Source: Calothrix sp. PCC 7103
GTDB taxonomy: Bacteria; Cyanobacteriota; Cyanobacteriia; Cyanobacteriales; Nostocaceae
NCBI RefSeq assembly: GCF_000331305.1
Contig: NZ_KB217483.1
Coordinates: 1,282,356 to 1,346,355 of the forward strand
DNA: 64,000 nucleotides
Direction: 5' to 3'
A program made the position numbers and the translations under genes. Below, piece after piece: positions 1,473-42,800 of this stretch; positions within the stretch are counted from its first letter, which is position 1, and every line of letters begins with the position of its first letter. The notes under the pieces are model-generated. The model was not told the DNA's origin. It saw only the letters and a list, made by a program, of their open reading frames with translations, and did no database searches.

Positions 1473-3197
1473 ATGTTTGATATTTGTGTAGTACAAAAAA
1501 TAGCTTTTGGGAGTTTGGTGGGACTGACTTTATTAAACAGTAAGATATTGGCTCAATCTACTCCACCTAGTGGGGTTACTATTCCGGAAAATACTCAAGA
1601 GCGAATAGAACAAACGATTCCCAAACCACCTGAGTTACCTTTTCCTCCTGCTACAACCGAAGAGTCTCCAACTCCACCACTTTCCACACCACCAACAAAC
1701 CAACCATCACCACCAACTCCTGTAACTGAGCGTTTTAGAGTTAAAGATATAGTAGCGATAGGTAATACTGTATTAAAAGACGAGATAAATAAATTAATTC
1801 AAGAGTATAAACAAAAGCAGGAAGTCTCTTTTGAAGAATTAATAACGCTGAGAACTCGCATTACTCAACTATATATTGATAATGGTTACACAACATCAGG
1901 CGCCTTTATATTAAATGACCAAATTATCGAAGATGGCATTATTCAAATTCAAATAGTCGAAGGTAGACTAGAAAGTATACAAATTAATGGACTCAGAAGG
2001 TTAGAAGACCCATATATACGCAATCGTCTTAAACGTGCGACTAGTGTACCATTAAATCAAAAACGTTTAGAAGAAGCTTTGCGGCTACTACAGATTGACC
2101 CAATTATACAACGAGTCAACGCCGAATTACTTGCTGGCAGCAGTCCCGGTTTAAATGTACTAATAGTTAAGGTAGAAGAGGCGCCTGCGTTTCATGCTGG
2201 AATAATATATGCTAATAATCAATCGCCTAGCATTGGTTCTAATCAAGCAAGTGTATTTGTTACACATGATAATTTTACAGGTTATGGCGACCAAATCAGC
2301 CTCGAATATGGTTTTACCGACGGTTTAGACATATATAATATTAGTTACAAAGTACCAATCAATGCTTTAGATGGGACTTTGAGAGTTAGTTATAGCAACA
2401 ATAATAGCAAAATCATCGAAAGTCCATTTGATGAGTTAGGTATTCGTAGCAACTCTGAAACATTATCTTTTAGTTATCGTCAACCATTAATTAAAAAAAC
2501 GCAAACAGAGTTCGCAGTTGGTGTTGGATTTGACATACGTCGTAGTCAAACATATTTACTAAATAATATACCATTTTCTTTCTCAGAAGGACCAAAAGAT
2601 GGAGAATCTAGAGTTTCAGCAATTCGCTTTTTCCAAGACTGGACAAAACGTAGCGCAACACAAGTATTATCTGCACGGTCACAATTTAGTTTTGGTATTA
2701 ATGCCTTTGATGCTACAGTTAACGATATTGGAACGGATGGACGCTTTTTTTCTTGGTTAGGACAATTTCAATGGGTACAGCAAGTATCCCCAAGAATTTT
2801 ATTGATTACGCGCGTTGATGGTCAGTTAACTCCAGACTCACTGCTTTCGCTAGAAAAGTTTAGCATTGGAGGCGCCGAAACTGTGAGGGGTTATCGCCAA
2901 AACCAACTTGTATCAGATAATGGAATATTAGGCGCCGTCGAATTACGCATACCCTTAACAAGAAATCCGAGAACATTACAGATTAGACCATTTTTTGAAA
3001 TTGGAACTGGGTGGAATAACCGTGAAGATAATCCCGACCCAGATTTACTTGCCAGTCTTGGTTTAGGTCTGGACTGGCAAGCTATACCCGGTTTGAATGT
3101 AAGTCTAGATTATGGCATTCCTCTGGTTGGTGTAAAAGATAGAGGCAATTCTTTACAAGATAATGGATTAAATTTTTACCTGCGGTATCAAATTTAG
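1473..3197 (+). CDS. TpsB outer-membrane transporter, ShlB/FhaC/HecB family
   Basis: This 574-residue protein fits the usual TpsB length. An N-terminal hydrophobic segment (about residues 8-28) is a signal peptide. A proline- and threonine-rich linker (about 30-80) follows, then POTRA-like domains (about 85-250, including VKDIVAIGNTVL and QIVEGRLESIQINGL). The rest is a beta-barrel with the family motif GGAETVRGYRQNQL (the VRGY lid-lock motif) and a terminal barrel strand ending in YLRYQI. It sits 38 bp after the exoprotein gene in the same direction, which is the normal tpsA-tpsB order in cyanobacteria. It should recognise and export the upstream exoprotein across the outer membrane. Family assignment is firm; substrate specificity is inferred from adjacency. 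Confidence 0.93.
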   Translation: MFDICVVQKIAFGSLVGLTLLNSKILAQSTPPSGVTIPENTQERIEQTIPKPPELPFPPATTEESPTPPLSTPPTNQPSPPTPVTERFRVKDIVAIGNTVLKDEINKLIQEYKQKQEVSFEELITLRTRITQLYIDNGYTTSGAFILNDQIIEDGIIQIQIVEGRLESIQINGLRRLEDPYIRNRLKRATSVPLNQKRLEEALRLLQIDPIIQRVNAELLAGSSPGLNVLIVKVEEAPAFHAGIIYANNQSPSIGSNQASVFVTHDNFTGYGDQISLEYGFTDGLDIYNISYKVPINALDGTLRVSYSNNNSKIIESPFDELGIRSNSETLSFSYRQPLIKKTQTEFAVGVGFDIRRSQTYLLNNIPFSFSEGPKDGESRVSAIRFFQDWTKRSATQVLSARSQFSFGINAFDATVNDIGTDGRFFSWLGQFQWVQQVSPRILLITRVDGQLTPDSLLSLEKFSIGGAETVRGYRQNQLVSDNGILGAVELRIPLTRNPRTLQIRPFFEIGTGWNNREDNPDPDLLASLGLGLDWQAIPGLNVSLDYGIPLVGVKDRGNSLQDNGLNFYLRYQI

Positions 3198-10816: not shown

Positions 10817-11629
10817 ATGCAAATTCGATTAGCTGTTATTAGTAATGCTGGAGGAAGTGGCAAGACGACGCTTTCTGTCCATCTCGCCTACGAATTAGCA
10901 AAACGTAAGCACAGTGTAGCTTTGATGGATTTAGACCCACAAGGTTCGCTGACTTTGTTTTGTGGACTGGCGCCACCTGAACCGGAGCAGACGCTTGCAT
11001 CTGTCCTCAAAGATAAATTTGATGGTACGTGGCCTCTCGTCAATTGTTGGAGCGACTATACCGATAAAGTAGTTATCTGTCAGGGTGGGATGGTGTTGAC
11101 ACAAACTGCTGATGAATTGGTACTACACAAACGCGGCGCCTATTTGCTGGGGGATTGTTTAACTGATAGTCCACTCGAACAGGACTTAATTATTTTTGAC
11201 TGTCCTGCAACGCTTGGTCCTTTGCCTTTAATGGCACTAGCGGCTTGTACACATATAGTTATTCCCGTACAACTTGAGCCAAAATCAATTCAAGGCGCCG
11301 CTCATTTATTGGAATGGTACTATTACCATTGCAAGCATTTACGTTTAAAGCCAGTTCCAGAGATTCTGGGATTTGTGCCTAACCAGTATGACGCGCGCAG
11401 AGCTACTCACCGACAAATGCTTGCTAGTTTGCCCGGACAGTTAGAGCAAATGGGTATCCGCGCGTTTCCTGCTATTCGAGATAGTGCTGAATTTGTTAAT
11501 TCTAGCGGTCAAGGTTTACCAATACATCTTTATCGCCCAAGCCATCCTGCCAAAGATGATTTCAAAGAAATTGCTACTTTTCTTGTATCTTTAATTGGCA
11601 AGAAGTCGAAAGTTACTGCAAATAAATAA
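10817..11629 (+). CDS. parA: ParA-family partition ATPase with an atypical Walker A
   Basis: This 270-residue MinD/ParA-type ATPase starts at ATG 10817 (GGAG upstream). The P-loop is NAGGSGKTT (residues 10-18): the nucleotide lysine K16 is present, but the signature lysine of the deviant Walker A (normally KGG) is alanine (A11). The switch I region and Walker A' DLDPQG (about 41-46) and Walker B LIIFDCPA are standard. It lies 2 bp ahead of parB, so they form a partition operon. ParA proteins drive segregation of plasmids or chromosomes on the nucleoid. Loss of the signature lysine would affect dimer-dependent ATP hydrolysis in canonical ParAs; either the family varies here or the mechanism differs. 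Confidence 0.88.
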   Translation: MQIRLAVISNAGGSGKTTLSVHLAYELAKRKHSVALMDLDPQGSLTLFCGLAPPEPEQTLASVLKDKFDGTWPLVNCWSDYTDKVVICQGGMVLTQTADELVLHKRGAYLLGDCLTDSPLEQDLIIFDCPATLGPLPLMALAACTHIVIPVQLEPKSIQGAAHLLEWYYYHCKHLRLKPVPEILGFVPNQYDARRATHRQMLASLPGQLEQMGIRAFPAIRDSAEFVNSSGQGLPIHLYRPSHPAKDDFKEIATFLVSLIGKKSKVTANK

Positions 11630-11631
11630 TT

Positions 11632-12780
11632 ATGTCCTCTCGCAAACCAACCGCACGCAAAGCTCCTGACCTTAGTAATTATTTTTCTGGTGCCAAGCAG
11701 TCTCAGCAGTTATCTGAAGCTGAAGAAGAAATTCTCAAGCTAAAAGCTGAGATTGAAGAACTACGCTCAAGTGGGTCGAATGAGTTGGAAGCCCAACTTA
11801 AAGAATTGCGCGAGCAACTCCAATCACAAACAGGTATACTATCGATTCCTATCGAACAAATCGAACCCAATCCTGAGCAACCCAGACAGACATTTTTGCC
11901 TGAAAGTGTTGAATCGATGTCTCGCTCGTTAAACAGCGACGGACAATTGCAACCAATTATTTTGATTCAGCGTGAGAAATTGCTGCTATTTGATGGAGAA
12001 CGTCGTTGGCGTAGTGCTAAAGCTTTAGGTTGGCAAGCTTTACAAGCGGTGATTATTCCAGAGCCAGAAAGTTTGCATCGTAAGGCTTTATTAACTTCCT
12101 TACATCGTGAAGACCTCAATCCTCTTGATAAAGCTGAGGCAATTGTACGAGAAATTGCTAGTAATACTGAACTTGATCCTCCGGATATTCCCCGCATCCT
12201 TTCAACAGTCGTGCGGCGATTAAACATGCAAAAACGTATGAACGTGGTTGCCGAATTAATTGCAGAGGCACCAGAAAAACAACAGGAAGTGTTAGCAAGT
12301 CTTAGTTTGAGCGACTATGAACAAGCTGTGTTGTCAATATTATTAGATTTACAGCTTAATCCAGCCTCTATTGATGCGAATATTTTCCCCGTGTTGTCCT
12401 TAGCTGACGACCTGAAAGCATCTATTCGTAGCGGGTTAAAAGGTATGCACGCAATAGCACTACAAAAATTGTCCGCTAGAAACTTAGGAGTCAGTGAAGA
12501 TGAGGCACATGCAATTCGCACGGAAACAACTAAAAAGGTAATTGAGGAGAATTTATCGGTAATTGCCACACGTAAAGTAGTTAGCGAAGTAATAGCCAAT
12601 CAAGCTTCAGAGACAGAAATCAAGGACACACGTAAGCCAGTTTCTCAAGAAGTAAGGCGCCTGCAAAAGCTTTCCTTCGATTCTTTGAAGAAAGCTGAAC
12701 GCAGTCAGTTGCTCGAACTACAGGATACCTTGCGTCAAAAATTAACAGAAATTGATAAAATTTTGAAGGACGCTGAGTAG
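11632..12780 (+). CDS. parB: ParB/Spo0J-family centromere-binding protein
   Basis: This 382-residue protein starts 2 bp after parA. An N-terminal coiled coil (about residues 22-65) precedes the ParB/sulfiredoxin-like CTPase domain (about 75-180), with IPIEQIEPNPEQPR, SLNSDGQLQPIIL and the CTP-binding GERRWR box. A helical central domain (LHREDLNPLDKAEAI onward) should bind DNA, although the helix-turn-helix is less clear than in Spo0J. The C-terminal helix (about 350-380) probably dimerises. Together with ParA it should segregate the replicon. The N-terminal coiled coil before the CTPase domain is an unusual addition. Confidence 0.88.
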   Translation: MSSRKPTARKAPDLSNYFSGAKQSQQLSEAEEEILKLKAEIEELRSSGSNELEAQLKELREQLQSQTGILSIPIEQIEPNPEQPRQTFLPESVESMSRSLNSDGQLQPIILIQREKLLLFDGERRWRSAKALGWQALQAVIIPEPESLHRKALLTSLHREDLNPLDKAEAIVREIASNTELDPPDIPRILSTVVRRLNMQKRMNVVAELIAEAPEKQQEVLASLSLSDYEQAVLSILLDLQLNPASIDANIFPVLSLADDLKASIRSGLKGMHAIALQKLSARNLGVSEDEAHAIRTETTKKVIEENLSVIATRKVVSEVIANQASETEIKDTRKPVSQEVRRLQKLSFDSLKKAERSQLLELQDTLRQKLTEIDKILKDAE

Positions 12781-15794: not shown

Positions 15795-16367
15795 TTAGAA
15801 GCTATGTTGATTTACATCGTAACCCTGCTGTTGGTAGTAATCGTCTACGTCTATATCAAGTGGAAGTGTCTCAATCGCTTCCCCGTTACGGATATCTTGA
15901 GGCATATTATTAAGCCTTTCTTTATAGGTTGTCACTGCGCTAATCCGGGAACGTATCTCCGACTCGCCAAAATTTATACCGCGCGCGACGTAATACTCAG
16001 ATAAGCGGTTAAAGTTATTAACTTCAATCTTTTTCTTGCGCTCCATTTCTACAAGTGCTTGTTTGCTTATGCCAGCGTGATGAGCATGTTCAATATACTC
16101 GGTTCTTAAGGCGCCATCTGGTTGAAACTGCTTCTTTTCATCTTCAGAGAAAAAGTCGTATGCCGTGTAAACAGACCATGACTCTGGTTCAGTTTCGTCT
16201 AATAGTTTGAGTTGGTCGTATTCTTCTTTCATTCTCAATGCAAAATCATCACAAGCTGCTTCGCTCAAGCCCTTTGCTAATTGTTTTTGTCTGTACTCAA
16301 TTTTAACAGTACCATCTTCGTTTAATTTTTCTCGGTACATATTTAAAAAACGTTTTGTTCTTGACAT
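15795..16367 (-). CDS. Hypothetical protein divergent from the polymerase-like gene
   Basis: This 190-residue, charged, mostly helical protein has no signal peptide or membrane segment. Two segments are vaguely alike: EYRQKQLAKGLSEAACDDF, and EYIEHAHHAGISKQALVEM. They suggest a repeated helix-turn unit. It starts 40 bp from the large polymerase-like gene in the opposite direction, so the two share a promoter region and may be co-regulated. I do not recognise the family. Confidence 0.6.
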   Translation of the reverse strand: MSRTKRFLNMYREKLNEDGTVKIEYRQKQLAKGLSEAACDDFALRMKEEYDQLKLLDETEPESWSVYTAYDFFSEDEKKQFQPDGALRTEYIEHAHHAGISKQALVEMERKKKIEVNNFNRLSEYYVARGINFGESEIRSRISAVTTYKERLNNMPQDIRNGEAIETLPLDIDVDDYYQQQGYDVNQHSF

Positions 16368-16407: not shown

Positions 16408-19400
16408 ATGTCTCTCACTCTAAAACATTTCGATACTAGACTAAATAACTGGATTTATACAAATGATAATACTAGTAATTTTGATTCAATTCTAACAGAA
16501 GAACTGGAAAATACTCTGTTAGAATACTTTTTTGCTGATGAAGAGTTTTCTTTCGGGCAAATGGATGAAAAAAGTACTCCAGAGGATTTAAAAAATCACC
16601 CTAATAATCATGTACTGCTATTTTCATCTAAAACCAGGCTGCTGTATGGATCGGAAGAATGTTTGGAGGTAATAGAGAAACTTTGTCCAGACCGTAAAGA
16701 CCGTGGCGCCTATGGTTCTATCTTTTTAGGTTCATGCAAAAACGCCATCAACGAAAAACTAAGTATCTTAGTTGTAGATGATGCTACAGGGGAAAATGGA
16801 GGTATACTGGCGAATGAAGATGCTTGGAAACTTGTAGGTGACTGCTACGGACAGATTTCTACTGAGTTGTATGACCGACTAACTAAGCAAGTTGATAAAG
16901 AAGAAAAAAATTATCGTGTTATCCAACATCGTTTTGGGTGGCGGGAGACTGAAGGAGAGGACACTAAGTATCGGTTTGGGAAGGGTACATTTAGACCTTA
17001 TAAGATAGAGAAGCTCGAATACGCAAAATCTAATAATAAGCCTAAAATCGATATAATCATTCCGTTATCAAGCTTTAAAGGTACGGATAAGGATAATCCT
17101 AATAGTCCAGTTAAACCCCAAATCAAACCAGGACTTTACAATCAAACTATTTGGCTGGGCGAGAAGTCGCAGTCACAGCGTGGTAGAACAGCCATATCTC
17201 AGCTAATAGCTTCATTTCCCCAAGGTCTTAAGGATTTTGTTGAGGAGTTGGAAAAGCAGGCTGTAGAACTTGCCCGTATTCAAGATGACCCCAGGAAAGT
17301 AGCCCAAAAGTATTGTGAGAAATACGAAAAGCGCAAGCTACTTACCGCAGAATATAAGTCTTTGCTAGAACAAGAAATTACTGTCTTAGCTCAAGAATAT
17401 AAACTTACAGGACATTTAGATTTAGCTACGCCTGATTTTGAATTAGATGATGATTTGGAGGATAAAAATAAAACCGAGAAAGATGATTTGTTTATGTACA
17501 AACTTATCAAGGCGGACTTAATGGGTCATTGCCAACTGTTAGAGGTTGAAAAGGTTAAACAGGAATTAAGTCGATTTGTACAAAATGAATGGCGAGACAT
17601 TGCTATTGGCAGAACTTTAACTTTTGACCGGGGTATGATTATTCCTTCAAAAGCACTAAAAAATGGAGAAATTTGTGTACCTTGGTTTGATGATGGAGAG
17701 AAAGTGCTTAACTTCCGTTCTCCTTTCCTCAACTCGAATGGTTTATGCGTTTCTATTAATAAACAAGTTGAAGATTACTTTGGACCTAATGGTAAACCCT
17801 TAGAAGGTATTATTGTAGTTAACGATGAAGACCACAAGCGTATTCAAGCAAGAATAGAAGCGCTAAAAGCACAAGGGGAAGTTTTGGAGGTAGACCCTGC
17901 TGAAACAGAATCAGAACGTCAAGGACGCGATTTTGATGGTGACTGTATTGGTGTAGAATTAGCCAGTAAATATCCTAATTTAACCGCAGAAGCTGAGTAC
18001 AGGAACCTCCCTGAAAATGCCTACGCTCCTACAGTTAAGCTGAAAAAGCAATCATTTTATAGAGAAGATGGCGCCCAACCAGAATTTGAGGAAATCGCTA
18101 TTTTCATGTCTGACGGTATCAGCGTTGGTGTTATTAATAACCAAGTAACTACTCTCGAAGCTTTAGAATCTGAAATCGAAATTCTAAGAGCTTACGGTAG
18201 TTTACAGGAAAAATCCGATTATTTAGATAAAATAGCTAACCATTATCAAAAGTTATTTACCCAGGAAAATAACGAGAAAAACCCTCAACCTATCCGTGAA
18301 GAATATAGGGAGCGGATGAATGAAGTTATTAGTTTAGCTTCAGATAAAAACAGAACCCCTGCATTGGTAGACCAAACAATGGAAATTAATCGTAGCATCT
18401 ACCGCAGCATGATAGAAGAAGGTTGCTTTCAAAACCAGGTTGCAGTTGATATGTTTAAAAGCGCGCGCGCTCCTGATATGAAGTTGATCAAAGAGAATAA
18501 ACGTTACTTATACCGTGATGTTAATTATATCAAGGATAAAAAATTACCTCAAGCTTACTTAACTGAAGCTATCGTCCCCAAAGGTTATTCGCCAGTAGAA
18601 CTGCTAATAAATCAAACCAACAAATACTTTCAAGAATCTCAACTTGAATCTAGACCTATTGTTCAATTCGCCGATTTATTTAAAGGCGTTGACTTCACTC
18701 CACAACAAAAGTTTCAAGCTATCCTTGCTAAAGAAGAGTTTGATAACAAATTTAATGAAGCTACTCGCATGGAACGACGACGTAGCAGTGAACAAGGCGC
18801 CTATGCGGTAATCGCAACGCCATCAGGAAACAATATAGAAATTACCAATTTGATTCGATATGAACACCCTAAAATTTGGAAAGCCCAAACTCTTAATATT
18901 AAATTTCAGGAAATACCAGAAAAGTACCGCAGCCAAGACCGTCCACATACACTTTTGGCATTAGCACAAATTGATAGCGAAATGGAAAACGGAGAACCCA
19001 AATATCGTAAATTGGGTACAGTCAGCCAGCAATCAGTCATTGATTATAAACTGAAACCTGGAACAACAATACAAGGCGCCACTTTAGTTGAAATTAAGCC
19101 CGAACTTAGAAAAAGCCAGACTAAGCTGTTATTTCAACAAGCTTATGCAGTCGCAGAAAACTTTTGCGCTTCTATTCCCGAATCAGAACGTTTATCTACT
19201 GCTGCTGCGACCTGGAGTATATCAGCTACAAGACAAGACGAAGTGGAGCAAAACATTAGTACTTATTATGAAGATAAAAAAGTATCTAATTTTGTCTTCG
19301 CTGCTTTCCCAGAAGAAATTTTGGGAAGGGTTGACAAATTACAATTTACTAATCTTAAACTCACGGGGTTAGGTAAAGAAGGTGATAATTTTAAAGACCG

Positions 19401-22185
19401 AATATGGAACCCAGAAGAAAAATACGATATAGAAATTAGAGCTAGCCATTATTCAAAGGAACACGAGCGTCATGGTTATAGAGTAGTGTTTGTCAAGGAA
19501 AATAATGAGGATTATAAGGAATTTGCTGTTTTAGAACAAAGAACGGGAAGATTGCCCATCGGTACTCAAGCGCAAGCTTCAATTAAAGCAGGAGAAGCTT
19601 ATACAGCCAAAGCTACTCTCGTTGAACCTGATAAACCTGCTATTGAATTTACCATACGAGAAATTAGCAAATTTTCTCATGCAGGTAAAACTTTTAACGG
19701 TGAACAAGTAACATTATTGATTGGAAATGCTCCAGTTCCAAGCCAAGCAGCTAAAGTTAAATTAGAAGGTAAAATTTTAGGAGAACTGGATGTTGATTCA
19801 GTCAAACAACTTCAAGAAGCTAATTATTTTGAAAATGGCAATCATTTAAAGCTTAAGTTAAAAACAATAGAAACTACTAAGCATGAATCTGCCTTTGTTA
19901 TTGGGGAATCACCTAACGGTAATTTAATCAGAATTAATAAGCTTAATTACTATGACTACCAAGGTCAAAAATTTGATGATGCGAAATACCAAAATTTTAC
20001 TATAGAGATTCCTCCAACTAAAAATAGAGATGCAGTGCTTCTAGATGGAGAATTGCTGGGAGTACTACACTTTAAACAAGATAAGGAAGCTCTTAGAGAA
20101 CTCGGAATTTTAAAGCCAGGGCGCCAAGTTTCCGTACAATGCAACCTCCAAAGTAATTTTACGCACACGTTTGTTCAAGTTGAAGAAAGCACAGTACAGT
20201 ACCCAGAAGTCTGGACAAAGGAAAATCAAGCTTTCAAAGATACGACCCAGCAACTTGTGGTAACTCCACAAGAAGCAATGATTGAAAAAAGCGCGCCATT
20301 TCTTCAGAAATTAAAAGAACGTCCCACCATACTATTTAGCAGCCAAGAGGATAAAGTATTGGGGCTAATGGGAATGGCAGTTGATAACCACAAAGTTGAA
20401 ATTGTCCAGCAGTGGTTAAAATCTCGCTCGATTGAATTTAGCGCAATTGCTCCAGAAGACGTTCCTTTAGAAACAAAGAAAGGTCTTGCGGTACTCTACC
20501 TTGTTACTAGTACAATCAAACCTAGAGACGATGAATTACTTCAGGCGAAATTTGGCGAACTTTTAGATGCGAATGGCGCCAATAATGCTTACTATAATTA
20601 TCTCAACTCCCTGCCTAATCGACCCCAAAATATTAGAGAAAACCCAGAAAAAATAATCGAATCTAAGCAACCAACTCAAGTTGCGACCGTAATAAGCAAT
20701 AGTACACATGCTCAAGTAAAAACGGAGCTTATTACTACTGGCGCCACTTTCAATAATCCAACTATTAGCACCCCTATTAATATTGGTTCCTTGAGTTCTG
20801 ACCCTCTAGGCGCCGCTCTTACCAATCCTACAGTCAAAGCTAAAGAACTGGGTAACATTAAAGGGGACTATCCAGTATCCTTTCGAGACAATCCTTTTGT
20901 AGCGGCAGGGAGATGTGCGGCTGAGGTGTGGACTCAAGACAAACCAGACGGAGTTCCCTTTGTCTCAGCAGAACAAGCTTACCAACACTATAAAGATACA
21001 GTTCCTATCCCAGAAGCGAGAGTCCAATTGATAGCAGAAATTATCGAAGCCAAACTAACTCAGCATCCTAAGTTGTTTGAAGCGATAGCAGCAAGGGGTG
21101 GAGTGGAATGGTTAGAAAGTTGTACCCACTACGTCACCTCAAATAAAGACAACTACTGGGAAGGCAAGGGTAAAGATTCACCTTTCATCGGCGCCTTGAT
21201 AGACGCATACTCCAAAGTCTTAGAAACTTCTAAAACTGTAACCGTCATAGCTTCCCCAGCATCACAACCAGCAAACCCGCTTTCCAACCTAGAACCTCTT
21301 AACGATGCTGTGGCGCCTCACATGCAGAAAGATTTAGCGATGGCTCAGGAGGCAAACCAATTCATCGGTAAATCAGCGGCACCGCCCGATACACCCTCCA
21401 GTACTCGCAACTACGAGCAAGCTTGGGGAAAAGGCGCCAACACAGGGGTGTATTCAGCTTCGGACACAATTATGGTATCAGGGTCTGGTCCTTGGCGCGG
21501 TGTTACCCAGCAACAAATTCTTGAAACTTTCAAAAATCATTATGTGCCACTACTAGATAAAGCCATTGCATCTGGCAGTTCCTTTGTAGTGGGCAATGCA
21601 GCTGGCACTGACCAGCTAGTACAAAAATATTTGAAAGAGCATGGATATAAGTTGAGTAGCTCAAAGGGTGATGGATACACGCGCGCGTCACCGCCAGAAA
21701 AAGTTACTTGTGTTGATAGCAGTTATGAGCAAACCACTATTGACAGTTTAAGAAATTGGTATAGTACTGCTGACAAGCTCGGCAAATCAGAAGAGTACAA
21801 AAACCGGATTATAGAAGTTGCTACCGAGTTACAGTCTGGGCAGGGATTGTCCGAGAAAGCATTAATTGCCATGACCAAAGATATGGAAGAATTGCGTTCT
21901 ATAAATCGGCTGACTCAAATTGCTCAAAGAATTGGTGATGTTCTGGGACAACCTGGGGAAGGTAGTTCTATAGTAGTCAAGGGTACAACCTACGATATTT
22001 CTCTTAATCCCTCGCAAAAAGACTTAACAATTTCCCATAAAAATGGAAATGTAGTTCTTGATATTGAATCAAGTAAAATAAAAACTAACCAAATCTCTTC
22101 TGAGGTAATAAAAACTTTTGAAGATATTAATACTAAAATTGATACAGCTTTGCTTCAAGTAAAAGCTGAATATGTGGAAATGTAA
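16408..22185 (+). CDS. Giant two-barrel RNA-polymerase-like protein with C-terminal NADAR-like and SLOG-like domains
   Basis: A 1925-residue single polypeptide. Residues about 120-205 resemble the first double-psi barrel of QDE-1/YonO-type polymerases: DDATGENGGILA, then RFGKGTF with the barrel lysine candidate K192. Residues about 430-520 resemble the second: NFRSP (435-439), IIVVND, then DFDGD (508-512, bases 17929-17943), the metal-binding signature of all multisubunit-type and RdRP-type RNA polymerases. AVDMFKSA (679-686) matches the AVD..K motif downstream of the active site in QDE-1-like enzymes. Residues about 830-1330 hold three diverged beta-rich repeats. About 1485-1605 is NADAR-like (FVSAEQAYQHYKD, EAKLTQHPKLFEAI, DNYWEG). 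About 1685-1765 is SLOG-like (VSGSGPWRG, VVGNAAGTDQLVQKYL). The role is unknown; transcription or priming of this replicon combined with ADP-ribose/nucleotide processing is inferred. A small acidic gene follows 33 bp downstream. Confidence 0.72.
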   Translation: MSLTLKHFDTRLNNWIYTNDNTSNFDSILTEELENTLLEYFFADEEFSFGQMDEKSTPEDLKNHPNNHVLLFSSKTRLLYGSEECLEVIEKLCPDRKDRGAYGSIFLGSCKNAINEKLSILVVDDATGENGGILANEDAWKLVGDCYGQISTELYDRLTKQVDKEEKNYRVIQHRFGWRETEGEDTKYRFGKGTFRPYKIEKLEYAKSNNKPKIDIIIPLSSFKGTDKDNPNSPVKPQIKPGLYNQTIWLGEKSQSQRGRTAISQLIASFPQGLKDFVEELEKQAVELARIQDDPRKVAQKYCEKYEKRKLLTAEYKSLLEQEITVLAQEYKLTGHLDLATPDFELDDDLEDKNKTEKDDLFMYKLIKADLMGHCQLLEVEKVKQELSRFVQNEWRDIAIGRTLTFDRGMIIPSKALKNGEICVPWFDDGEKVLNFRSPFLNSNGLCVSINKQVEDYFGPNGKPLEGIIVVNDEDHKRIQARIEALKAQGEVLEVDPAETESERQGRDFDGDCIGVELASKYPNLTAEAEYRNLPENAYAPTVKLKKQSFYREDGAQPEFEEIAIFMSDGISVGVINNQVTTLEALESEIEILRAYGSLQEKSDYLDKIANHYQKLFTQENNEKNPQPIREEYRERMNEVISLASDKNRTPALVDQTMEINRSIYRSMIEEGCFQNQVAVDMFKSARAPDMKLIKENKRYLYRDVNYIKDKKLPQAYLTEAIVPKGYSPVELLINQTNKYFQESQLESRPIVQFADLFKGVDFTPQQKFQAILAKEEFDNKFNEATRMERRRSSEQGAYAVIATPSGNNIEITNLIRYEHPKIWKAQTLNIKFQEIPEKYRSQDRPHTLLALAQIDSEMENGEPKYRKLGTVSQQSVIDYKLKPGTTIQGATLVEIKPELRKSQTKLLFQQAYAVAENFCASIPESERLSTAAATWSISATRQDEVEQNISTYYEDKKVSNFVFAAFPEEILGRVDKLQFTNLKLTGLGKEGDNFKDRIWNPEEKYDIEIRASHYSKEHERHGYRVVFVKENNEDYKEFAVLEQRTGRLPIGTQAQASIKAGEAYTAKATLVEPDKPAIEFTIREISKFSHAGKTFNGEQVTLLIGNAPVPSQAAKVKLEGKILGELDVDSVKQLQEANYFENGNHLKLKLKTIETTKHESAFVIGESPNGNLIRINKLNYYDYQGQKFDDAKYQNFTIEIPPTKNRDAVLLDGELLGVLHFKQDKEALRELGILKPGRQVSVQCNLQSNFTHTFVQVEESTVQYPEVWTKENQAFKDTTQQLVVTPQEAMIEKSAPFLQKLKERPTILFSSQEDKVLGLMGMAVDNHKVEIVQQWLKSRSIEFSAIAPEDVPLETKKGLAVLYLVTSTIKPRDDELLQAKFGELLDANGANNAYYNYLNSLPNRPQNIRENPEKIIESKQPTQVATVISNSTHAQVKTELITTGATFNNPTISTPINIGSLSSDPLGAALTNPTVKAKELGNIKGDYPVSFRDNPFVAAGRCAAEVWTQDKPDGVPFVSAEQAYQHYKDTVPIPEARVQLIAEIIEAKLTQHPKLFEAIAARGGVEWLESCTHYVTSNKDNYWEGKGKDSPFIGALIDAYSKVLETSKTVTVIASPASQPANPLSNLEPLNDAVAPHMQKDLAMAQEANQFIGKSAAPPDTPSSTRNYEQAWGKGANTGVYSASDTIMVSGSGPWRGVTQQQILETFKNHYVPLLDKAIASGSSFVVGNAAGTDQLVQKYLKEHGYKLSSSKGDGYTRASPPEKVTCVDSSYEQTTIDSLRNWYSTADKLGKSEEYKNRIIEVATELQSGQGLSEKALIAMTKDMEELRSINRLTQIAQRIGDVLGQPGEGSSIVVKGTTYDISLNPSQKDLTISHKNGNVVLDIESSKIKTNQISSEVIKTFEDINTKIDTALLQVKAEYVEM

Positions 22186-22218: not shown

Positions 22219-23034
22219 ATGTATACAAATCCTTTAGTAACACTTACAGAAACTACCTCCGCAATATCAAAAGATATTTCTCCTTCTAGAACAGTTTATA
22301 TACTTAGCCAGATTATAGAGACAATTGGGTACGATGAGCAATATTTGGCAGATAATGTAGAAGAAGTAAGTCTTTCCGAGCAAAACGATGCTATCAAAGC
22401 TTTATCAGAGATGATTGTTGGAATTAACTCAGGAAAATCGTATGAAGAATCTATAATAATAGCATTATCTTTGCCAGAGGAGCGCGCGGAAGAAATTGGT
22501 GATGAAGAGGCGCCTATAATATTAGTAGAGGACGAAAAAACATCGCCTTTAATGCAGCTCTCTTCTGTGGATGAACTAGATGATAGTTCAGCAATTGCTT
22601 CATATGTATTTGAAGAAGTATCAACTTTTACTGAACAAGAACAAACTTCGTTAAAGCTTTATCAGCAAGATACAGAGGATATACACCAATATGTAATTCC
22701 ACTAATTCTAACAAGATTAATTAAAGAAGGTTCAGCTATAAAAAACGAAGATACTAAAGATTTAATAACTAGGGTATATAAGTCAGAAAAGTTTACTGCA
22801 ATATTAAAAGCGACTTCAGAAGGTGAGCAATTATTAACGTTAGATAGAAATGCTCCTCTAAAAAATGAGGATGCCACAGCTTTGGAGGCAACTAGAGAAT
22901 CTTCTCAGTTGAGGTTTGAGATTATTATCAACAATATTACTCAGCAAGAACTAGAGCAAATAAAAATAATAGCTCTACGAGAGGCTAAGAAAATATCTCA
23001 AAACGAGAGAAAACAAAGCGAGCTAGGTGAGTGA
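22219..23034 (+). CDS. Acidic hypothetical protein downstream of the polymerase-like gene
   Basis: This 271-residue protein lies 33 bp after the giant gene in the same direction, so co-transcription is likely. It is strongly acidic (many E and D, especially about 95-165), predicted helical, without membrane or signal segments. No helix-turn-helix or enzyme motif is visible. The adjacency makes it a candidate accessory subunit or regulator of the polymerase-like protein, but that is inference only. Confidence 0.6.
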   Translation: MYTNPLVTLTETTSAISKDISPSRTVYILSQIIETIGYDEQYLADNVEEVSLSEQNDAIKALSEMIVGINSGKSYEESIIIALSLPEERAEEIGDEEAPIILVEDEKTSPLMQLSSVDELDDSSAIASYVFEEVSTFTEQEQTSLKLYQQDTEDIHQYVIPLILTRLIKEGSAIKNEDTKDLITRVYKSEKFTAILKATSEGEQLLTLDRNAPLKNEDATALEATRESSQLRFEIIINNITQQELEQIKIIALREAKKISQNERKQSELGE

Positions 23035-32687: not shown

Positions 32688-32742
32688 AACATGTATACTA
32701 AGAACACAACTGTAGTTATTGTTGTTACCGCTTTCTCCATAT

Positions 32743-35700
32743 ATGGACTCTGTGAATCTCGAAGAAGTATTACGATTTGTAGATGCAGTAACTTTCAGTA
32801 AGACCTCGAAACACCTCAAGGATATTGAAGTCTCTATTTTGCGGGGTGCTTGGCAAGGTCAAAGTTATGAGGACATAGCTCTTGAACTTGGTTACACAGA
32901 TAAATATCTCAAGCAAGATGTAGGCCCAAAGCTATGGAAACTGCTGTCAATGGTGTTTGCTGAAAAGGTTAGTAAAACTAGCTTTCGGTCTGCGCTAGAA
33001 CGCAAGTACTCAGATCAAAATGAAGAGAAAAATCAAGGCGCCTCAACCAAAGTGCTACCAACTCATAGGGAGGCGCCAGTATTAATAGAAGCTTGCTGTG
33101 ATTGGAGCGACGCACCAAATATATCAGCGTTTTATGGAAGGACAGAAGAAATAGCAACGCTCAAACAGTTAATTTTGAAGGATGGTTGCCAACTTGTGGC
33201 AATTTTAGGAATGGGAGGAATGGGTAAGACAACTCTAGCTTTGAAGTTAGCACAGGAACTACAGAGTCACTACGAGTTTATTATTTGGCGCTCAATTCGC
33301 AATGCTCCTGAACTTAATGAGCTTTTATCCGATATGATTCAGCTTTTTTCGGGTGGACAAGAAAAGCTTCCCGAAAAGCTTGATAATCAATTATCTACTT
33401 TATTTAAATATCTTCGTAATCATCGCTGCTTAGTCATACTCGATAACATGGAGTCTATATTGCAGGACGGAGAGCATGTTGGTCAGTATATTTCAGGCTA
33501 TGAAGAGTATGGTAACTTACTTCAACGTTTCGCTGAGTCTAACAATCAAAGTTGTTTAATTGTAACTAGTAGAGAAAAAACTAGAGAAATTACCTTACTC
33601 GAAGGAAATACATCCAAAGTTTACTCGTTACCGTTACGAGGGTTACTTAGTAAAGCTGGGTATCAAATTTTTCAAGCAAGAGGCAACTTTTTTGGTATCA
33701 GCAATGAAGAGTGGCAAGAGGTATTTCAACATTATGCGGGTAATCCTTTAGCATTAAAAATAGTTGCTTCAGCCATCCAAGAATCATCGGATGGTAATAT
33801 GAGTGAACTAATACCTTTATTGCGTCGAGGGGAATTACGATTTGAAAACATTAACGACTTACTCGAACGACAATTTAAACGATTAGGCACCGTTGAAAAG
33901 GAGATAATTTACTGGTTAGCTATTAATCGTGAACCAGTTTCAATTTCTCAACTTAGTGCGGATATCGAAACTGAAGACACAAAAAACCAATTAGTAGATG
34001 GGTTAGCATCTTTAATCAAACGAAGTTTAGTTGAGCGCAGTCAAAATAAACGACTATTACAACCTGTTGTAATGGAGTACGTTACCGAAAAGTTAGTACA
34101 AAAAATAAGCGGTGGAATAGCTACTAAAGATTATAGCTTTTTAAAGAACTATGCATTGCTCAAAGCTTCGAGCGAAGACTATGTAAGGCAAGCTCAAGTC
34201 CGCTTTATACTTAAACCAATAATAAATAAATTAACATCTAAATTAAATGGTTATATTGGAGTTGAACATCAACTAGTAAATATTTTAAATGAAGTCAGAC
34301 AAGAAGCCGCATTTCGACACAGTTATATAGGTGGAAACTTACTTAATCTATTCATTCATTTAAAAACAGACTTAACTAGCTATGATTTTTCTCATTTTCA
34401 AATTCGACAAGCTTATCTGCAAGGCATAAATTTACATCATGTAAATTTTTCTGGGTGCAATTTTCAAAATTCGGTCTTTACTAAAGCCTTTGGCGCCGTT
34501 AAAGGTGTAAAATTTAGTCCTGACGGTCAGATATTGGCAACTACTAACACTGACTGTTCAATCAGCTTATGGCATGTTGACACTGGACAACATATATTAA
34601 CCTGTAATGGACATACTAGCTGGGTATCAAACGTAGACTTTAATATAAAAAATCAAACTTTTCTGAGTGCAAGTGAAGATAATAAAATAAAAATATGGAA
34701 TTTATATGGCACTTGTCTTAATACAATTGATGCCCATACAAAAACATTACGCACAGCAACTTTTAGTCCAAATGGAGAATTAATAGCCAGTTGTGGAGAT
34801 GACCAACTTGTTAAACTTTGGGATGTTGACACTGGAAAATGCCTAAAAGTTTTAGATGGACATGATGGTTGGGTTTTTAGCATCAGTTTTAGCCCTGATG
34901 GTAAATTGCTTGCAAGTAGCAGCAATGATAAAAGCATTAGAATTTGGGAAGTAGAAACAGGGAAATGCATCCAAATTATAGAAGGACATCGAGATTGGAT
35001 TTTAAACGTAAACTTTAGTCCTGACGGTCAAACTTTTACTAGCGCTAGTTTTGACCATACAATCAGAGTTTGGAAACTTAATAGTGGCGAATGCTTACAT
35101 ATTTTAAAAGGTCATACATCTTGGGTGTGGAAGGCAGTCTTTAGCCCTGATGGTGTCCAAATTGCTAGTACTGGTTCCGATAAAACTATCAAAATGTGGG
35201 ATGTCTCAAGCGGCAAATGCACAAAAACAATTACAGGACATACAGACCAAATATGGTCACTAGCTTACCATCCAGATGGTAACAAAATAGCCACAGGCAG
35301 TGATGACCAAACAGTAAGAATATGGAACATAACCGACGGTAAATGTCTCAAAGTTATTCAAGGATATACAAACTGGGTTAAATCAGTCAAATTTACACCC
35401 AACAGTCAACAGTTAGTTAGCGCTCATCAAGACCATGCCATCAGAGTTTGGCATATCTCTGGGCGCCAAGAAAGCACACTTAAAGGACATGAAGGTTCTG
35501 TATTATCATTAGCAGTACATCCAAATGGTGAAATCATTGCCAGCGGAAGTGAAGACCACACTATCAAAATATGGGACATAACTGATACTAAATGTTTATA
35601 TACAATAAATGAACACACTGGTGATGTATGGGGTGTTAGCTTTAGCCCAGACGGAAAATTACTAGCAAGTGCTAGCTACGACCGAACCATCAAAATTTGG

Positions 35701-36336
35701 CAACTTGAAAACAAAGTATGTATTTATACCTTAAAAGGATATCATGATAAAATTGGAGCAGTAACTTTTAATGCTTCTGGTTCGCTACTAGCGACTGCTG
35801 GAGAGGGTGCAATAGATGTTTGGGATGTAGAAAAAGGTATATGTCTATATACTCTAGAGGAGGAAGGGCACAAAGGTAGAGTAAAATCAGTAGCTTTTAG
35901 TCCAGATAGTCAATATTTAGTAAGCGGCAGTACTGATAGAACAATAAAAATCTGGGACTTACACAAACGTTGGTGTATTCGTAACTTTACAGGACATGGC
36001 GCCAGTGTAGTATCCGTATCTCTTAGCTCAGACGGAGAAAAAATTATTTCAAGTGCCTGCGAGCGTACTATCCGCATTTGGGACATCAATGAAAACAACC
36101 ATTCTCAAGAGCTAACTGGACACAAAAATTGGGTTTGGTCAGCAACATTTAGTCTAGACAATCAGCTAATAGCAAGCGCTAGCCAAGATGAAAGTATTAT
36201 CATTTGGGATGCGAATACAAATAAAAAGTTAGTAGTCTTGCGAGCAAAAAGACCTTACGAAGGAATGCAAATTTCATCTTCAACAGGTTTAACAGTGGCA
36301 GAAACATCTGACTTAATAACCTTGGGAGCAATTTAA
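32743..36336 (+). CDS. nSTAND (NB-ARC-type) NTPase with 14 WD40 repeats
   Basis: From ATG at 32743 this is about 1197 residues (a TTG at 32719 would add eight). The N-terminal 85 residues form a helical HTH-like domain (ILRGAWQGQSYEDIALELGY, then VGPKLWKLLS) common in front of cyanobacterial NB-ARC proteins. The P-loop is ILGMGGMGKTTLA, and the NB-ARC sensor regions follow (LVILDNM, IVTSREK, GNPLALK). A helical linker leads to 14 WD40 blades (SPDG...IW pattern), enough for two seven-bladed propellers. These STAND proteins switch on ATP hydrolysis after the WD40 part binds a ligand, and some are immune sensors. A carotenoid-oxygenase-like gene follows 34 bp downstream. No separate toxic effector domain is recognised. 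Confidence 0.9.
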   Translation: MDSVNLEEVLRFVDAVTFSKTSKHLKDIEVSILRGAWQGQSYEDIALELGYTDKYLKQDVGPKLWKLLSMVFAEKVSKTSFRSALERKYSDQNEEKNQGASTKVLPTHREAPVLIEACCDWSDAPNISAFYGRTEEIATLKQLILKDGCQLVAILGMGGMGKTTLALKLAQELQSHYEFIIWRSIRNAPELNELLSDMIQLFSGGQEKLPEKLDNQLSTLFKYLRNHRCLVILDNMESILQDGEHVGQYISGYEEYGNLLQRFAESNNQSCLIVTSREKTREITLLEGNTSKVYSLPLRGLLSKAGYQIFQARGNFFGISNEEWQEVFQHYAGNPLALKIVASAIQESSDGNMSELIPLLRRGELRFENINDLLERQFKRLGTVEKEIIYWLAINREPVSISQLSADIETEDTKNQLVDGLASLIKRSLVERSQNKRLLQPVVMEYVTEKLVQKISGGIATKDYSFLKNYALLKASSEDYVRQAQVRFILKPIINKLTSKLNGYIGVEHQLVNILNEVRQEAAFRHSYIGGNLLNLFIHLKTDLTSYDFSHFQIRQAYLQGINLHHVNFSGCNFQNSVFTKAFGAVKGVKFSPDGQILATTNTDCSISLWHVDTGQHILTCNGHTSWVSNVDFNIKNQTFLSASEDNKIKIWNLYGTCLNTIDAHTKTLRTATFSPNGELIASCGDDQLVKLWDVDTGKCLKVLDGHDGWVFSISFSPDGKLLASSSNDKSIRIWEVETGKCIQIIEGHRDWILNVNFSPDGQTFTSASFDHTIRVWKLNSGECLHILKGHTSWVWKAVFSPDGVQIASTGSDKTIKMWDVSSGKCTKTITGHTDQIWSLAYHPDGNKIATGSDDQTVRIWNITDGKCLKVIQGYTNWVKSVKFTPNSQQLVSAHQDHAIRVWHISGRQESTLKGHEGSVLSLAVHPNGEIIASGSEDHTIKIWDITDTKCLYTINEHTGDVWGVSFSPDGKLLASASYDRTIKIWQLENKVCIYTLKGYHDKIGAVTFNASGSLLATAGEGAIDVWDVEKGICLYTLEEEGHKGRVKSVAFSPDSQYLVSGSTDRTIKIWDLHKRWCIRNFTGHGASVVSVSLSSDGEKIISSACERTIRIWDINENNHSQELTGHKNWVWSATFSLDNQLIASASQDESIIIWDANTNKKLVVLRAKRPYEGMQISSSTGLTVAETSDLITLGAI

Positions 36337-39892: not shown

Positions 39893-42800
39893 CTACTTTA
39901 TTAATACATACCTGACAATTAACCAAAGTTTATCGACCTCAGTTTTTACATCTTGAATTTTCACTTGCCAATTGTCTATTGGAATAGCGTTGTCTGCGGC
40001 ATGTATTGCAAATGAAACCATTGTTCCTACGTTTTGTGGCGAACCAAAATCAGTCTCGTTGTCAGACTGTATTAGCTTGATTGGTACAGATTTAAGAGCT
40101 TGGGGCTTAAATAAATACACATCGGTAGCTTGAATATTTTTTGGATTTCGCCCTTTGGTAAAAATTGGTAATCGCTCATTCAAGTTGTTAAGTATTAGTA
40201 CTCGCTCGGTACTGCCAGAGGGCGGTTGCATTGCTTTATACCATTCGCTGGCAAAGTCGTGCTTTAAGTCGAAGGCAGCAAATAGTCCCTCTTGGCGACT
40301 AAGTTCTTCAACACTCTTAATATACTCTTGCACGGACTCAGCAGCAGGTGCTTTGAGTTTGTCTCCACCTTCCAATGCTGTATAACGTATATGTAATACT
40401 GCATCTGTAATTGTGTCATAATCAAATTGCCTAAATTCGGGTAGTTCTAGGCGCCATCTACTAATAACGCCGGCGCCTTCAAATGGGATGTAGCGTTCGT
40501 CTTTGAAGTTTAGCTCAAATACACCACTATCATTTTGACCTGTACTAACGGCAATTGAAGTTATGGGTACATTAACCGTGCTAAAGCGCTCGTCGGTTTT
40601 ATCGGTTTTTTCTGGATAATCAGTTTTGTTTTTGGCGAGGGCATTTATTCGGAACTTATGTTCTAATAGTCGCAGTGTGCAATTAAGGCTAGTATAAGGA
40701 CCAACGACACAAGGAACTGTTAGAGCTACAGATTTGATACGAAGCATGTAGTGACCAGGATGATCCATGTCGAATAGTACTTCTGGTAGGGCAAATTCGC
40801 ACTTTCCAGTTTCTTTGAGTTCAATTAATGCTAAAGGATTAATTTGCCGTAGCGAAACGTGTTTTGTTACTTCGTAGTCATAGCCACGTTTTTCTTGATA
40901 GGCGCCTTCGAGTTGTTTTAAACCAATATATAACCGCTCACCAGATAGTAAACCGTTGTGGGCAGTATCCCAATAGCCAAACTGAATAAAGTTAGATGTC
41001 GTCAGTCCACGCTCGAAACGGAAGACTTTCTCTGCTTTTTTAGCTAGTTCGTAGGCTAGCGTGTAAGCTTGATAATACAACGTTTGGATTTGTCCTTCCA
41101 TCCATGTGTAGAGTTCTTCGTTGGTATATTTATTACGTAAGAATTCCTCTACTTCTTGGGCATTGTCAATATTTTTCTGCTGGTTGGTAATTTCTTGGTT
41201 GGCAATATTAATCCGAATTTGTTGGGTTAACATTTGTTTGTCAATGTTTTTGATTTCATAACCAGCAACGTTTGCTTGTTGTACACGGTCTTGTAACTGG
41301 CGCAGAAAACCACCTTTACGCCCTGCATTGGTACTCTCAAATGAGAGTTTGTTAGCGTCCGTCTGCATCCAACGTGCAATGCCTTGCATAGCACTTCCAA
41401 AATTTGAACCACCAATTGTGAAATTTGCACCAACTCCAATAGGTGTAGCAAAAGCACCAATTGTTGGTATTGCGTGTAAAATACTTGCAATACTTTCAAC
41501 CCGTCCAACATCGACTTGTTTATCAGCAACCTGCACTGATTTATCCATCTCCTCTTTTTCATAAGCAATCAATTTCAGACCGCTTTCGTCAACAGGTTGT
41601 TCGATTTGGTTGGGGAGTTCACCAAAATCAGTACTACCATTTGGTACTTTACCCAAGTCCTCACCAATCAGCTTTAAGTAATGTTGCAAACGGTAAACTG
41701 GACTTTTCCGGTTTTGTTCTAAAGCTTCTAAAGATTTTCCTGCTTCTTCTAGCTGCTGCTTTTTCACTTCCATTAAAAGGTTGTGCATTGTGCTTTCGTG
41801 CTTGGCACGCAGTTGAGATAATGCTTCCCCATCTTTTTTCTCTTTGGCTGAAAGAAAAGCATTACCCATTGATTTTAGTTCCGCACATACTTCTAAGGCT
41901 TTTTGCAATAAGTAATAGAAGCGGTAGTTAGGCATCGGGCTATTTAAGTCATTAAGCACACTTGCCAAACTAAGTCCCTGAGCAGCAGCTTGGACTAATA
42001 ATGCTGGATCAATTGGTGGTTCAAACAGTGGTAATTTACGGAATACGCCTTCAATATTCTGACAGTGGCGAATCTTAAACAAGCGGTCGTCAATAGTATC
42101 ACGGAGACCTCTTAATTTTGGGTTATCAGGTATACAGAAGTATAAAGTTGTTGCAAAACCAAAGATATTAGCTAGTCCCACAACACCATTACTTACACCG
42201 ATTGGAAATGAGGTTTGGTTGCTAAAGGGAAATGCTAATTCTAACTCAACCATTGCATTACTGAACGCATCCCATTTGTCCAATAGTGACATATAGGTTT
42301 GAGGTTGAACTTTGCCGCGTTTAGGAATTTTTTGTCCCCTTGGCCCATATATATGGCCAGCTAGTACATAAAGTTGTGTAGCTTGGTTCAGGGTTTCGAT
42401 GGTATCTTGACGAAATAAATAGTCACCCCAAGCTATTAAAATTTCGATGTATTTCATCACTACCCACTTCATGTAGGCAACAGGACGAGAGCGCGCGATA
42501 ACATGCGGTTGAAAGGGTTTATCTCGCCATTCGTTGATTTGTTGATTTGGGGTAGTATCAGGTGTGTTGGGTTGTAATCCTATAAACAGTTTTTCCAGTA
42601 CATTCTTGGCATCAACTTCTTTAAACGGTGTAAACTTCCAGAAGCGCTTATTGTCGAAACCTTGTGCAAAGGGGTCAAAGACATAGTGACACATTTTTAG
42701 TGCTTGCTCAAATTGTTGTGATTTTAACAAGCGGTCTACTAGCAGCATCGGAGCATGGAAAGGCGCCTCCCAATTATATAGAGAGTAAGGGCGTTTTAAT

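Follow-up and report, generated by a model that had tools for sequence, protein, structure and literature searches.

The stretch of Calothrix sp. PCC 7103 DNA analysed here (64,000 nucleotides, the window) carries on its forward strand, at positions 16408..22185, an open reading frame (ORF) that starts with ATG and encodes a single chain of 1925 amino acids. The N-terminal part of the product resembles two-barrel RNA polymerases, and its C-terminal part holds a NADAR-like segment, a candidate SLOG-like segment and a conserved tail. We propose, at a probability of about 0.47 and so a little short of even odds, that it is a plasmid-encoded polymerase of the two-barrel type, belonging to the DNA-transfer or establishment module of conjugative and mobilizable elements of cyanobacteria and equipped with exchangeable counter-defence domains. 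The gene, its motifs, its homology, the modular organization of its family and the relaxase genes located upstream of it in many relatives are the observations that carry the proposal; from these we infer the synthesis of RNA, its template and timing, the entry into a recipient cell and the role in counter-defence. A product of chance or a frameshift artefact is ruled out by the single intact frame and the colinear relatives, and the guanine plus cytosine content at the three codon positions (0.51/0.35/0.30) is typical for a coding frame.

Relationship of the core to two-barrel polymerases

The presumed first barrel (residues ~99-300, positions 16702..17307; this and all further segments of the gene lie on the forward strand) contains Lys192, in a K-G-T setting, and Lys224, in F-K-G. 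The presumed second barrel (residues ~400-575, 17605..18132) contains the R-x-P motif Arg437-Ser438-Pro439 (17716..17724) and the DFDGD sequence of residues 508-512 (17929..17943), presumably the metal-binding loop. Past DFDGD lies a V-D-x-x-K motif (residues 680-684, 18445..18459), and residues 930-1400 (19195..20607) form a family-conserved region. An earlier interpretation of this DNA made from the letters alone (the sequence-only reading) had named G191-K192-G193, N435-F-R437-S-P439, D508-F-D510-G-D512 and A679-V-D681-x-x-K684, and each was found at the residues given. The succession of paired lysines, R-x-P, DxDGD and VD..K is the one that we take QDE-1 and YonO to have, the likeness to YonO being one of motif order and of profile links through intermediates rather than of a direct sequence comparison.

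Conservation was analysed in an alignment of 106 rows. Arg437, Pro439, Asp512 and Lys684 are kept in 106/106, Asp508, Asp510 and Asp681 in 105/106, and Lys547 in 105 or 106; Lys192 and Lys224 are each lysine in 105/106, the remaining row, one truncated sequence, having a gap. The single deviating row at Asp508, Asp510, Gln677 and Asp681 is a paralog from the same genome, on contig C10, which has a DTDGD sequence ~30 residues away from the aligned DFDGD site; either the alignment is displaced there or this copy is truly different. Since 80 of the 106 rows were fetched by patterns over residues ~143-152 and 675-684, conservation near those positions, the V-D-x-x-K motif included, is partly a matter of selection, while DxDGD, R-x-P and the lysines played no part in the fetching and are free of it. 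Among 11 compared relatives the motifs are retained at identities down to 22%. Judged from these alignments, motif conservation is beyond chance.

The homology was traced by profile comparison with hhalign, whose expectation values (E) refer to single comparisons; the profile of the window family was built from 21 chosen sequences. It aligned with that of an intermediate cyanobacterial group over 844 columns (E 1.8e-58), and directly with a phage family (phrog_4291, from Actinobacteriophage and Lactococcus phage), several members of which are named RNA-dependent RNA polymerase, at E 2.8e-7 and 93% probability, the alignment spanning R-x-P and DxDGD in the second-barrel segment. The intermediate group matched the same phage family over the R-x-P/DxDGD segment (E 1.5e-6), the reversed-profile controls for the phage-family comparisons gave E 0.53 and 0.78, and a third, smaller related group reached only E 0.008. 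A member of the intermediate group (locus L018), which a tblastn search with the core of the window protein had brought up at E 9e-10, exceeds the curated cut-off of the Pfam RdRP family PF05183, a family of the QDE-1 type, with 27.5 versus 23.8 bits. That cut-off was reached in 5/292 cyanobacterial genomes and in 0/14 control genomes. The phage proteins differ from the window family in being 876-1031 amino acids long (nine used) and phage-borne, and the three that were scanned show helix-turn-helix matches close to either end; their first barrel and C-terminal half are not significantly alignable to it. Profile searches among PDB chains gave no match for the window family (best E 0.25) and none for the intermediate group, and for the phage family mostly helix-turn-helix chains, with a jumbo-phage beta' chain at E ~1.

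Hence the core is likely to belong to the two-barrel polymerase class, as judged from profiles and motifs. The active-site, or second, barrel appears well supported, and the partner, or first, barrel is probable, mainly on account of two lysines in similar settings, Lys192 and Lys224, which are invariant where present.

Exchangeable segments between core and tail

The core, the middle region and a tail of 145 amino acids (residues 1780-1925, 21745..22182) are common to most relatives, and the NADAR and SLOG segments lie in between in some of them only. The tail occurs in relatives with and without these segments and was found in 66/80 loci, i.e. in 66/71 of the frames that end in a stop codon. 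NADAR and SLOG segments together were found in 21 of the 80 loci, NADAR alone in six and SLOG alone in two.

In the window protein the NADAR-like segment covers residues 1480-1606 (20845..21225). Compared with 17 NADARs it gave E 5e-7 and a probability of 92%, the reversed control being at 0.38; an earlier, narrower NADAR set had given E 0.012 and 3.5%. One locus cut by a contig end (L156) was excluded from the comparison. Searches with the Pfam NADAR model gave no match in the window protein and reached only E 0.05-0.08, below the cut-off, in relatives (1/20 family members, at E 0.076). The candidate SLOG-like segment (residues 1685-1765, 21460..21702) was delimited by a motif and an alternating strand/helix pattern only. 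Domains of the cpYpsA SLOG type were found in 7/20 chosen full-length relatives; for YspA/YAcAr as the SLOG type, members for comparison were found in 0/31 genomes. AlphaFold2 modelling of residues 1400-1925 with 20 sequences was of low confidence at the decisive places, and Foldseek found no match to the model at E<=0.001; the tail was predicted with local confidence as helix and strand, and residues 1685-1765 as a strand-helix pattern at moderate predicted local distance difference test (pLDDT) values.

Two of the 20 chosen relatives, L116 (3308 amino acids) and L120 (3331 amino acids), have a helicase-type AAA domain of the superfamily 1 (SF1) type, and in both of them one chain unites the core with this domain, a cpYpsA SLOG and a NADAR-like segment. 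The C10 paralog (L131:3905-11806, minus strand; 2634 amino acids, in an open frame of 2647) carries, besides the core, two cpYpsA SLOG, a macro-like and a NADAR-like segment, the densest ADP-ribose toolbox among the proteins examined. Its macro-like segment matches Pfam Macro at E 0.005, below the cut-off, and phrog_335, named 'phosphatase', at E 5.9e-24; macro domains include ADP-ribose phosphatases. Its NADAR-like segment matches Pfam NADAR at E 0.05. Across the relatives, then, a polymerase-like core is combined with NADAR-like, cpYpsA, helicase and macro-like segments, several distinct activities per chain.

Plasmid distribution, relaxases and neighbouring genes

The sequence-only reading had taken the gene to be replicon-borne, in agreement with the location of the window on a 1.56 Mb contig (C12) of the 11.58 Mb, 12-contig genome, apart from one of 8.79 Mb, and with the plasmids on which relatives are found. 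At E 1e-5, 77 of 72,556 plasmid records match, 57 of them covering 80% or more of the query at a single place; at 1e-2 the number is 79, of which 37 are typed as conjugative, 15 as mobilizable and 27 as non-mobilizable. Among the plasmid matches listed the organism names are cyanobacterial, and 53/60 are labelled only 'hypothetical protein'. A homolog in Gloeothece (L043:9878-15841) is named 'ribonuclease H', probably in error, as Pfam and NCBIfam show no RNase H family in it. Sampled genomes of the phylum gave matches in 14/146, or 11/146 without three doubtful ones (G052, G132 and G119, E 1e-4 to 4e-4), which look like chance, with frames of only 277-291 amino acids. In the genome scan 227 relatives turned up, and loci were made from the best 80, all with cyanobacterial titles; the locus statistics rest on these 80, with the other 147 outside the counts, and the related loci are not independent of one another. 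More distant paralogs within the genome itself lie at 0.11 and 0.38 Mb of C12, at 0.05 and 8.77 Mb of C7 and on C10, the C7 copy at 0.05 Mb being broken into two open frames. No phage record matched at E 0.1 and none of the pattern-matched viral-contig stretches (2 and 275) encodes a relative, so these searches point to no direct phage source. The family is a widespread cyanobacterial plasmid family.

The strongest context, missed by the sequence-only reading, is the presence of relaxases upstream of the gene in many relatives. MOBP, MOBV and MOBF are distinct relaxase classes of one broad superfamily. Five queries from annotated plasmids were used, three from records typed as MOBP by MOB-suite and one annotated as MobF. 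The fifth, annotated 'plasmid recombination enzyme', comes from a record typed non-mobilizable and was labelled MOBV, in part because MOBV is the type given to another record that has a gene of this kind. At least 8 kb of upstream flank were available in 54 of the 80 loci, which were therefore scorable. An upstream relaxase match was found in 48/54 (MOBP 19, MOBV 20, MOBF 9), and no scorable locus had two classes. Downstream no relaxase was found in the flanks covered, a result weaker than the upstream one because these flanks are shorter, only 39/54 loci having at least 3 kb. A quickly built core tree implies, by parsimony, eight changes of relaxase class, which suggests that the gene tends to remain near whichever relaxase is present. 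A NADAR and/or SLOG segment occurs in 19/19 MOBP loci, in 0/29 MOBV or MOBF loci and in five of the six loci without a found relaxase; this association is confounded by relatedness, as the MOBP loci form two clades. Among 12 named plasmid regions, the six with an annotated relaxase or mobilization gene comprise MOBP-typed records, MobF, 'plasmid recombination enzyme' and MobD-like genes, and most of the other six belong to distant family members.

In the Calothrix genome the paralogs at 8.77 Mb of C7 and 0.38 Mb of C12 each have within ~16 kb a coupling-protein match as well as a relaxase of MOBP-like type, and the two regions (C7:8755279-8771773 and C12:366655-382223) resemble each other as clusters in which these two genes accompany the polymerase-like paralog. 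Their composition suggests integrated conjugative elements. The only TrwC match in the genome is on a contig other than C12. One of the plasmids carrying the gene, pANACY.02 (L040, L218-L220), is conjugative and has in addition a type III CRISPR module and a ThiF/E2-like cluster.

Two small genes flank the one under study. The upstream one is divergent (15795..16367, minus strand; 190 amino acids) and begins 40 bp away from where the big gene starts; a homolog is found in the same place in 37/54 scorable loci, with gaps of 31-61 bp. By eye, a motif is apparently present twice in its product, which could possibly be a partner or regulator of the big protein. The downstream one (22219..23034, forward strand; 271 amino acids) is co-oriented and has a homolog in 24/54 scorable loci. 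Further upstream are partition genes for ParA and ParB_N proteins (10817..12780, forward strand), and an upstream gene of 732 amino acids has no counterpart in the other loci fetched. The window also contains two very large ORFs on the minus strand (39893-49372 and 49597-57081; 3159 and 2494 amino acids), a forward-strand gene of 1205 amino acids (32719-36336) that matches phrog_19311 at E 3.9e-26 and, in residues ~137-250, weakly several ATPase families, and a two-partner secretion transporter of the ShlB/FhaC type (1473-3197, forward strand).

A proposed role around DNA transfer and its alternatives

Under the proposal, the ~900 N-terminal residues would fold into two barrels, one contributing the paired lysines and the other the DxDGD metal loop. 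The polymerase would make RNA on the DNA of the plasmid as the single strand arrives in a new cell, or readies to leave for it, and its products might be the earliest transcripts or the primers from which the second strand is made; such synthesis around transfer is suggested by the location of a polymerase of the two-barrel type in a transfer module. In MOBP elements a NADAR-like segment, a cpYpsA SLOG, in one paralog a macro-like segment, or a helicase would be inserted between core and tail, and these domains probably undo or sense host defence based on ADP-ribose or nicotinamide adenine dinucleotide (NAD) during establishment. NADAR enzymes take ADP-ribose off guanosine in DNA (PMC11125620), and phage NADAR, SLOG and macro domains have been proposed to act against immune signals derived from NAD (PMC9503650), so counter-defence fits the inserted domains; a role directed specifically against DarT is possible. 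More tentatively, and as a conjecture that may well fail, the protein would correspond, in conjugation, to the virion RNA polymerases of phages, being sent with the incoming strand or made first from it, giving a start of RNA synthesis independent of host enzymes, with ADP-ribose/NAD domains matched to the relaxase module.

A number of observations weigh against the proposal. The window protein has no significant sequence match in Pfam, NCBIfam, PHROG or PDB (best PHROG E 0.06). The presumed first barrel matches the phage family weakly (E 0.006; the intermediate group E 0.44), the region past the second barrel gives E 0.31 and no alignment, and the RpoC1 of the same organism compares weakly with the window family (E 0.013, probability 3%, reversed 0.14). 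The AlphaFold2 model of residues 1-1140, from 41 sequences, has a mean pLDDT of 56, with values below 50 at residues 174-278 and most of 399-574, where the barrels are presumed, and Foldseek found no match to this core model at E<=0.001. The low confidence is probably due to the alignments, which held only sequences 47-79% identical to the window protein, and the model appears neither to support nor to refute the two-barrel fold, which is unproven. The two-barrel polymerase of the sequence-only reading therefore stands by homology, through intermediates and in the direct match to the phage family, but not by predicted fold. In the C-terminal part, the middle GR...RxDW stretch, invariant in 13/13 aligned typical NADARs, is absent from the segment of the window family, and for this reason the segment is named NADAR-like; the NADAR claim of that reading was upheld at the profile level, but not at the Pfam cut-off or in this stretch. 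Its SLOG claim was not confirmed for the window protein, in which residues 1685-1765 gave no Pfam SLOG, no SLOG-named PHROG and E 0.21 with cpYpsA, a type seen in relatives. As for the context, no relaxase was found in 6/54 scorable loci, only 6/12 named plasmid regions have an annotated relaxase or mobilization gene, the nearest relaxases found lie ~48 kb from the window copy on either side, and both paralog clusters have the relaxase on the opposite side of the polymerase-like gene. Finally, pANACY.02 is annotated to encode PrimPol, parts of DNA polymerase III and a single-stranded DNA-binding protein (SSB) as well, so the big protein is not needed there as the sole primase.

Several of these observations would suit a resident plasmid RNA polymerase of the YonO kind, which would transcribe plasmid genes in the carrier cell, the relaxases being merely its targets or neighbours. 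YonO, from SPbeta, has been described as the RNA polymerase of a bacteriophage, which initiates at a site upstream of yonK (PMC5467207), the window copy adjoins ParA/ParB and not a relaxase, half of the named plasmid regions have no annotated mobilization gene and 27 of the 79 plasmid records are typed as non-mobilizable. However, an upstream relaxase in 48/54 loci is more specific than general residence on plasmids would demand, and the NADAR, SLOG and helicase insertions better suit a conflict at entry, which makes this explanation rather unlikely. Still less probable, to our judgement, is a two-barrel polymerase producing DNA or short primers only, in the manner of PolD or of a primase, for second-strand synthesis or replication. 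The two-barrel core of archaeal PolD does make DNA (PMC8131849, PMC6355029), conjugation carries the Toprim primases of RP4 (TraC1) and R64 (SogL) into recipients, where they prime (PMC5512222), and L116 and L120 have their fused helicase; on the other hand, the closest profile neighbours of the core are of the RdRP/RNAP type, and a PrimPol and polymerase III parts are already annotated on pANACY.02. A large structural or scaffolding polyvalent protein, with an inactive polymerase core kept as a DNA-binding platform, is very improbable: the core is so divergent that direct library searches missed it, and the C10 paralog deviates in the alignment at Asp508, Asp510, Gln677 and Asp681, but almost every one of the 106 rows retains the metal-loop aspartates, the two lysines and R-x-P, with identities as low as 22% among the 11 relatives compared, and C10 has DTDGD nearby.

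The proposed transfer-linked polymerase shares features with several described systems. Cyanobacterial genomes have already been said to contain YonO-like proteins (PMC5467207), so earlier authors may already have come across the core family; unlike YonO-like polymerases, the window family has a conserved region extending to residue ~1400, a tail, exchangeable domains and a plasmid setting often near a relaxase. The claim of the sequence-only reading that no protein with this combination had been described is thus qualified by these YonO-like proteins, although in the text available from the literature no description was recognised of a two-barrel polymerase that is linked with relaxases or shares its chain with NADAR. 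The polyvalent proteins of Iyer et al. 2017 (PMC5512222) are likewise very large and multidomain and join nucleic-acid enzymes to conflict domains; they adjoin relaxases, as many relatives of the window protein do but the window copy does not. As far as the available text of that paper goes, their polymerases are Toprim or PrimPol primases, with the N4-type RNA polymerase, which enters the cell together with the phage DNA, only in N4-like phages; the window family differs in its two-barrel-like polymerase and its cyanobacterial hosts. In the virion RNA polymerase of P23-45 an enzyme with homology to the cellular ones forms the N-terminal part of a giant protein, there fused to the phage tail tape, and the available part of the source mentions neither a relaxase nor NADAR or SLOG (PMC10770324). 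Leading-region anti-defence islands link counter-defence to the transfer origin and to early entry; they are described as genes that the host RNA polymerase expresses early, from Frpo promoters, no plasmid-coded two-barrel polymerase being mentioned in the part available (PMC11541004).

Injection of an RNA polymerase is known from phages, and a transfer-linked polymerase, if true, would be the same trick in plasmids. The proposal provides a hypothesis of function for a family present in at least 77 plasmid records, and the family is relevant to the statement that polyvalent proteins are scarce in cyanobacteria (PMC5512222). Moreover, a very divergent two-barrel polymerase would be useful for studying the evolution of this enzyme class. 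The question that it opens is whether a conjugating plasmid may bring along an RNA polymerase of its own.

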